DNA of 64,000 nucleotides, from the NCBI RefSeq assembly GCF_017352095.1, contig NZ_CP071463.1, positions 434,001 through 498,000 on the forward strand, given 5' to 3'. The notes beneath the pieces are model-generated. The model was not told the DNA's origin, did not search any database, and was given only the letters and a program-made list of their open reading frames with translations. The translations under genes were made by a program, and so were the position numbers. Shown here one piece after another: positions 8,943-35,916 of the stretch; within the stretch, counting starts at the first letter, position 1, and every line of letters starts with the position of its first letter. This DNA comes from Natrinema longum. GTDB lineage: Archaea > Halobacteriota > Halobacteria > Halobacteriales > Natrialbaceae.

Positions 8943-9033
8943 GTGGCACGTGCGGGTCGACGTCGACTGTCCAAACGACCCGTGATACGCCCAGCGGACA
9001 CCGGGTGTGACTGCTGTCGACTCGCTAGTAGTC

Positions 9034-9097
9034 ACTGCGAGTCGATGCACACCTGATCGCACGACAACTGTGCGATCAGTGTGTGAATCGTTGCAGT
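9034..9097 (+). repeat. Dispersed structured repeat, copy 1
   Basis: Core stem CTGATCGCAC (9053-9062) pairs perfectly with GTGCGATCAG (9070-9079) around loop GACAACT. Flanks ACTGCGAGTCGATGCACAC and TGTGTGAATCGTTGCAGT partly pair outside it, making a nested hairpin. Copies 2 and 3 lie at 35333-35416 and 28480-28555. Confidence 0.8.
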
Positions 9098-9231
9098 CGT
9101 TACGATAGAACGATCAACAGAGAGGACGCTACGTTGCCTCCTAACGAGGGTGTCATAGAACTCTTCCCATAGTGTTGATTACATCCACTTCGATGGTGAA
9201 TTGGCCGACAAGTAGGTCTGCGAACTGACCG

Positions 9232-28318: not shown

Positions 28319-28479
28319 GACCGATCGTGGCTGCGTCTCGAACATAGCCGCTGCTATGAGGGCTCCAGAGCGGTATGTAGTCGCGGCTCCGGACGACGGG
28401 GCCCGGCGCATGCCACTGGACGAAGCACAATCGACCCGGGGCCGGATAGCGGTCGCTCGGAATCGACGGCCAGCGACGA

Positions 28480-28555
28480 AAACTAACGACCGCAACCAGT
28501 CACAGACTGATCGCACACCTGTCGTGCGATCCGGTCTGCACTGCCTCGCAGTGGC
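28480..28555 (-). repeat. Dispersed structured repeat, copy 3
   Basis: Read leftward, this copy aligns over about 76 nt with copy 1: CACTGCGAG, then GGATCGCACGACA, GTGTGCGATCAG, and a tail TTGCGGTCGTTA. The core stem (28508-28516 with 28524-28531) and flanking AGAC/GTCT pairs are kept although bases differ from copy 1. It starts 45 nt after the citE-like stop codon, in that gene's sense direction. Confidence 0.75.
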
Positions 28556-28600
28556 TCCTCTCGCTCACGACCGGATGCCCGACGGCGTGCCTCGAGGCCC

Positions 28601-35258: not shown

Positions 35259-35332
35259 GCGGCGGAATATCGATTCGTTTCCGGCCGAACTGTCCGTTCG
35301 AAGAACGACACCGGCTTCGAGTCGAGAACAGC

Positions 35333-35416
35333 TATCGTCGCAACTGAAAGTCATTGTACACCTGATCGCACGACAGCGTTGCGATCAGTGTGTGAATCGT
35401 TTCAGTTGCGACGATA
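35333..35416 (+). repeat. Dispersed structured repeat, copy 2: 84-nt nested palindrome
   Basis: TATCGTCGCAACTGAAA (35333-35349) pairs perfectly with TTTCAGTTGCGACGATA (35400-35416); inside, CTGATCGCA (35362-35370) pairs with TGCGATCAG (35380-35388). The core is nearly identical to copy 1. The right arm contains the HEPN stop codon (35402-35404, minus strand), and the left end lies 74 nt after the mct stop. Confidence 0.85.
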
Positions 35417-35916
35417 ACAGACGCACGCACCGCCTTCTCGGATCCGATTGCTGACGTGGTCGTGTATTTCGCGAGCGAGTACTCGCATCGCGTCAGCCTG
35501 TGCTTTCGTCGGTCGTCTCCCACCGTAGTCGCTGTCCGTCCGGTTCTCCGTGTACAACCCCTCGAGTTTGTCCGTGGTCGGGCGCGAGAGAAGTGCGAGC
35601 TCCGATGCGCGATCGTAGCAGTACGCGTGATCGTGGAAGTCTCGCAATTCATCCCCGCCTTCCGCGAGTGCGTACGCCTCTATCGATCGCTCGATGGCTC
35701 CGAAACAGAGTTCGATAGTCGCGGTATAGTACCCGTCCTCGTCGATTCGTTCGACGGCGCGAAGGAGCGAACAACCCTTCGTGAGTTGGGCTTTCCAATC
35801 GTCGTCCGTGTCGATCGCTTCCTCGTACGCCGGGATCCCGTGTCCGGCCTCGTTGAACGCGTCGACGGCGGTCTCAAGCGCGTCCGTGATCGCGTTCGGA
35901 TCGGATCCTCACTCAT
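35402..35916 (-). pseudogene. HEPN-domain toxin gene, frame-broken by a 5-nt duplication
   Basis: ATG 35916 overlaps the end of the nucleotidyltransferase gene by 8 nt. After five codons (MSEDP) the 5-nt unit ATCCG is repeated (GATCCGATCCG), throwing the frame. In the other frame a coherent HEPN protein follows to TGA 35402: NAITDALETAVDAFNEAGHG, LTKGCSLLRAVERID, then RSIEAYALAEGGDELRDFHD and the late HEPN helix. Removing 5 nt gives exactly 170 codons (169 aa). Because of the shift, the HEPN frame is now continuous with the upstream gene except for that gene's own TGA. Confidence 0.8.

Follow-up and report, generated by a model that had tools for sequence, protein, structure and literature searches.

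An abundant 86-bp palindromic repeat of haloarchaea is very probably an IS630-type MITE

The window, a stretch of 64,000 nucleotides from the Natrinema longum genome (contig NZ_CP071463.1, positions 434,001 to 498,000), contains three copies of a palindromic repeat. Copy 1 lies at 9023-9108 on the plus strand (covariance-model match G000:C1:443023-443108, 85.2 bits, E 6e-17) and is an older copy with decayed ends, CGCTAG...CGATAG. Copy 3, at 28478-28563 on the minus strand (G000:C1:462478-462563, 68.1 bits, E 1e-12), is also older, and another genome of the same species (G108) has its ortholog at the identical site and in the identical orientation. Copy 2, at 35332-35417 on the plus strand (G000:C1:469332-469417, 106.2 bits, E 4e-22), is near intact with 17 of 18 outer pairs, and a diverged ortholog occupies the same site in N. 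mahii (G004). The initial annotation had placed hairpins with a shared core at these three positions, and both the positions and the core were borne out, as the window has three matches to GATCGCACGACANNNNTGCGATCAG and 100 shuffles of it have none. For copy 2 (GCGTTGCGATC) the core is as it had been described but the right inner arm, TGCGATC, is one base shorter, and the limits proposed for the repeat were too narrow, the conserved unit being 86 bp long with sharp edges.

The covariance model was built from aligned copies, and the alignment of 46 copies gives the unit CTATAGTAGCAACTGAAAGTCATTGCACACCTGATCGCACGACAGCGTTGCGATCAGTGTGTAAATCGTTTCAGTTGCTACTATAG, which is bounded by CTATAGTAGC...GCTACTATAG. 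The sequence on either side of the unit (before base 1 and after base 86) is close to random, with no conserved flank. The unit is organised as an outer stem of 18 bp and an inner stem of 13 bp, with an internal loop that carries conserved mismatches and a near-invariant terminal loop. The 18-bp outer arms are terminal inverted repeats that pair at up to 18/18 positions; in copy 2, pair counts place them at 35332..35349 and 35400..35417 on the plus strand, while column conservation and pair counts define the inner hairpin with its CGACA loop at 35357..35392 on the same strand. The inner stem is 90% paired, compared with 79% for the outer stem. Alone, the consensus folds at -51.5 kcal/mol, and the hairpin is very stable in both orientations. 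RNAalifold returned no pairs from the 46-copy alignment, probably because decayed copies, which column conservation shows to be many, disrupt the alignment columns. The consensus is non-coding, with all six frames interrupted by stop codons, and the copies are mostly intergenic, some of them at or just behind stop codons.

The repeat is abundant in its host and widespread beyond it. In the N. longum genome (one contig, 3.59 Mb) the core has 24+26 matches with at most three mismatches, and the reversed pattern has none. A covariance-model search found 75 distinct places in the same genome at E<=7e-8, together with matches in other haloarchaea, so that the family goes well beyond three chance matches and, as described below, does show covariation. 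Matches were present in 37/61 relatives, and in 104/293 sampled genomes from 35/87 genera of the order; named hosts include Natrinema, Natronorubrum, Natrialba, Natronococcus, Haloarcula and Halomicrobium. The viral and phage collections searched held no copies, and Rfam gave no family match, reporting only a tRNA in the window.

To establish how the repeat arrives at its sites, we compared filled and empty sites in relatives, covering part of the sites prepared for this purpose. Sites that carry the element in one genome lack it in others, and occupancy differs even between genomes of the same species. At one locus N. altunense has the element and four species without it have CTAG (L156). Where the empty site is ATAG the copy starts with A (L145), and where it is CTAT the copy terminates in T (L180). 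G108 has empty sites reading CTAC (L008, where the copy ends in C), CTAT (L014) and CTAG (L015). At L005 the ancestral site must have been GTAG and apparently supplied the upstream gene with its TAG stop codon; relatives carry TGA, TAA or TAG there. Given that the outer bases of filled sites match the empty sites, it is TA that is duplicated on insertion, and the outermost positions of the 86-bp unit come from the target. This overturned a reading of the flanks as lacking a target duplication, since both TA copies fall within the conserved 86-bp unit; no duplication longer than TA was found in the flanks. The unit is thus a core of about 80 bp (TAGTAGC...GCTACTA) flanked by two copies of TA, and the usual target is CTAG. 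By analogy with the empty and filled sites of other copies, the two TA of copy 2 are inferred to lie at 35333..35334 and 35415..35416 on the plus strand. The implied target is CTAG in 36/61 intact copies, against a background of 1.7% across the NTAN sites of this DNA. Judged from these sequences, the TA duplication, mostly within CTAG, is a signature of IS630/Tc1-mariner transposition. IS630 itself reportedly prefers CTAG, in work attributed to Tenzen and Ohtsubo in 1991 and cited in PMC2170065.

Some sites have features of their own. Head-to-tail pairs of copies share or abut at CTATAG in the N. longum genome (L038 1470-1635, genome positions 3039532-3039697) and in another genome (G007:C5, C48 and C49); such pairs would arise if a copy used the CTATAG end of another as its TA target. 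At L014 a copy (1469-1554) separates an ATG, 2 bases beyond it, from a TATA-like box (CTATATAC). G108 and other relatives have no element there, and the copy probably converts a leaderless gene to one with a hairpin leader.

A candidate source of the transposition activity is found in haloarchaeal IS630 elements, which we located through PF13358. These are 1055-1059 bp long, encode a two-ORF transposase (NF033545 and PF13358 matches), and have CTATAGTAG ends and a TA/CTAG target as in the 86-bp element. They terminate in CTATAGTA(G), mostly with C...G flanks, and ends of this type occur in 47/125 genomes of the family. The terminal 8-9 bases are identical to those of the 86-bp element, and up to 24/31 terminal bases agree at the closer end; past the terminal 9 bases the end consensuses agree at only 10-12/22 positions. 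An attempt to map the asymmetric internal loop one-to-one onto the two IS ends was abandoned, as identities of 21, 20, 18 and 18/31 gave no clear left or right assignment. The N. longum genome has no PF13358 (DDE_3) transposase, a gene that relatives do carry, no protein match and no lone element ends, every MITE-type end found lying in a short element, and no autonomous element with exactly matching ends was found in this genome and 1.9 Mb of loci. Since no IS630 transposase was found in the host, the element is a MITE of the non-autonomous kind and is presumably moved by a transposase acting in trans. TAGTAGCAACTGAAAGTC is the end sequence by which its parent would be recognised among the haloarchaeal IS630 elements.

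A sibling element of about 112 bp (L336 2347-2459) has near-identical ends (TAGTAGTCGTTGAAA) and a different core, which indicates that the ends are what is conserved. A 114-bp match at 1130277-1130390 of the N. longum genome is probably the same sibling. The numbers of IS and short elements do not track each other: with at least 53 matches to the IS630 transposase, one genome of the same genus (G023) yet has, like G006 and G022, only 2-5 copies of the 86-bp element, compared with tens in most relatives.

The ends may also carry other DNA. In the N. longum genome a 2.2-kb unit (L409, G000:C1:2782923-2785155) consists of two direct copies (L013 and L012) and a 2.06-kb stretch between them with ORFs of 285, 154 and 106 aa, none of which has a Pfam match. 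The 285-aa product has a Tat-like start, the 154-aa product is lipoprotein-like, and the third is the 106-aa product. In G108 the outer flanks of this unit join at a single CTAG, meaning that the site is empty and the unit strain-specific. This arrangement suggests a composite insertion and that the ends of the element can carry cargo. Separately, at the L005-orthologous site of G014 there is a 937-bp insertion (L255 380-1316) that starts with GTATAGTAG. Its product, 234 aa long, combines a Tat-like start with a C terminus rich in cysteine and may resemble a microhalocin precursor.

These data allow us to propose that the hairpins are very probably copies of an 86-bp MITE of the IS630/Tc1-mariner type, a parasitic mini-transposon. 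The initial annotation had left three options, of which the non-autonomous mobile repeat is upheld by the TA duplication, the empty sites and the related IS630 ends, and the RNA element and the protein-bound palindrome are not. In the proposed mechanism, a transposase of an IS630-family IS whose CTATAGTAG ends match would excise the MITE and paste it at TA; the transposase may come from other replicons that carry it from time to time, or may have been lost from the host genome. The element would have no host function, and its palindromic shape would come from terminal inverted repeats brought together around a short core. Template switching during replication would then copy mutations from arm to arm, producing apparent compensatory changes, and would sometimes flip the middle.

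A MITE-derived element could instead have been adopted by the host as DNA, as a site for a nucleoid protein or gyrase or as a terminator, as has been proposed for REP/BIME. The mostly intergenic location, with some copies at or behind stop codons, would fit such a role, as would a hairpin that is very stable in both orientations and better paired in its inner than in its outer stem. However, many copies are decayed and sites turn over between genomes of the same species, and an intergenic bias is expected anyway if genes contain little CTAG or if insertions into coding sequence are purged. We therefore regard adoption by the host as quite unlikely.

Given the paired changes in the stems, we also considered selection on a transcript. 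Compensatory changes, noticed at first in the three copies of the window, hold across the family: double changes occur at 19/31 pairs compared with 11.6 in column shuffles, 0/500 shuffles were as high, and all slid controls were lower. In 13 orthologous copy pairs, 8 base pairs had both bases replaced so as to give a different Watson-Crick pair, where about 1.25 would be expected if the sides changed independently. L029 and its G108 ortholog, for instance, differ by A-T to C-G at pair 8/79, in flanks that are 97.7% identical. A structured RNA (a riboregulator, or a 3'-end or processing element) with a stem kept by selection would account for these coupled changes, for paired changes above all shuffles, for the strong fold of the consensus and for the near-invariant loop. 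Selection on one strand should, however, leave an excess of G-U, and on the proposed strand G-T mismatches are as common as A-C mismatches (121 vs 117 in total; outer 72:71, inner 49:46), so that neither strand is favoured as an RNA with wobble pairs. Moreover, copies invert in place, site occupancy varies within species, Rfam has no match, and insertion of the unit duplicates TA. That the family works as an RNA element is in our judgement very improbable.

The step from paired changes to selection on structure likewise lacks support, given the parity of G-T and A-C, the confinement of all 8 coupled changes at orthologous sites to the outer arms, and the inverted copies. L005 is inverted in place between the N. 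longum genome and G108, and both versions have the private variant GTCAGTG. In two further copies (L131/G005 and L208/G001) the element faces the other way from its ortholog in another species. Of the three cases of reversed orientation, two could instead reflect separate insertions into one and the same target. Template switching between the arms of inverted repeats homogenises the arms and inverts the spacer (PMC8604942), and yields compensatory changes (PMC8794818). Arm homogenisation, spacer inversion and compensatory double changes are alike here, but those studies describe the process in yeast genes and rRNA genes, whereas for an archaeal transposable element we infer it. Such switching from arm to arm would explain both the coupled outer-arm changes and the in-place flips; conversion between dispersed copies could be a partial alternative source of the coupled changes.

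A palindrome related to IS200/IS605, either a REP/REPIN moved by a Y1 transposase or a haloarchaeal PATE of the type known in Haloquadratum (PMC3119063), would share the hairpin with conserved internal mismatches, the intergenic location and the high copy number, but is scarcely tenable and a RAYT/IS200 origin was rejected, as Y1_Tnp (PF01797) has 0 matches in the N. longum genome and in the high-copy genomes G001, G004, G008, G014, G021 and G027, and PATEs lack the terminal inverted repeats and target duplication that are both present in the 86-bp element.

One observation speaks against the hairpin being a pure by-product of transposition, namely the CGACA inner loop, whose near-invariance a by-product would not require. 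It is conceivable, though unlikely, that selection by the host or the transposase maintains the inner hairpin as a flipping DNA structure, and that composite units move host genes by means of a transposase acting only in trans, in a genome that itself lacks it.

As an IS630-type MITE, the element has known counterparts. The closest is RUP with IS630-Spn1 of pneumococcus (PMC2229807), an intergenic repeat of about 100 bp in about 100 copies that has IS630-like inverted repeats, a TA target and a transposase acting in trans, as for the haloarchaeal MITE. The likeness drawn here is one of features, and the haloarchaeal element differs in its domain of life, its 86-bp length, its long near-perfect palindrome, its CTAG preference and the absence of the partner IS from the N. 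longum genome. Correia/NEMIS and ERIC/IRU are likewise short, intergenic, high-copy elements with TA-ended inverted repeats and long hairpins, in other hosts and of other sizes (ERIC 127 bp); no related IS has been reported for them (PMC2229807), whereas the haloarchaeal MITE has one. Among haloarchaea, Haloquadratum walsbyi has SMR-A, SMR-B and MITEs of 80-110 bp with inverted repeats and up to 54 copies, and some of its MITEs are mobile with no intact transposase in the genome, as in N. longum (PMC3119063). SMRs reportedly make no target duplication, and SMR-A is reported to target PATE/IS605 palindromes (PMC3119063). By their published description, not by sequence, they are set apart from the present element, which duplicates TA, prefers CTAG and has random flanks and IS630-like ends. 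IS630 and ISY100 (Tc1/mariner/IS630 family; PMC2170065) share the TA target and its duplication, but are autonomous and have only their ends in common with the MITE. A literature search limited to open-licence papers found no description of the repeat. The family is thus newly characterised and unnamed, although its kind, the IS630-type MITE, is already known, and we claim membership of no named MITE family.

Together these data characterise an abundant and widespread haloarchaeal repeat family and link it to IS630 chemistry; its main interest lies in the breadth of the family, the composite unit and the lesson on covariation. It offers a worked case in which strong covariation and coupled changes probably arise from copying between arms at the DNA level and not from selection on RNA. 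Covariation can mimic RNA selection and alone proves no RNA, which calls for caution in covariation-based RNA discovery. With its in-place flips and strain-level empty sites, the family is also a convenient natural test of template switching in archaea.
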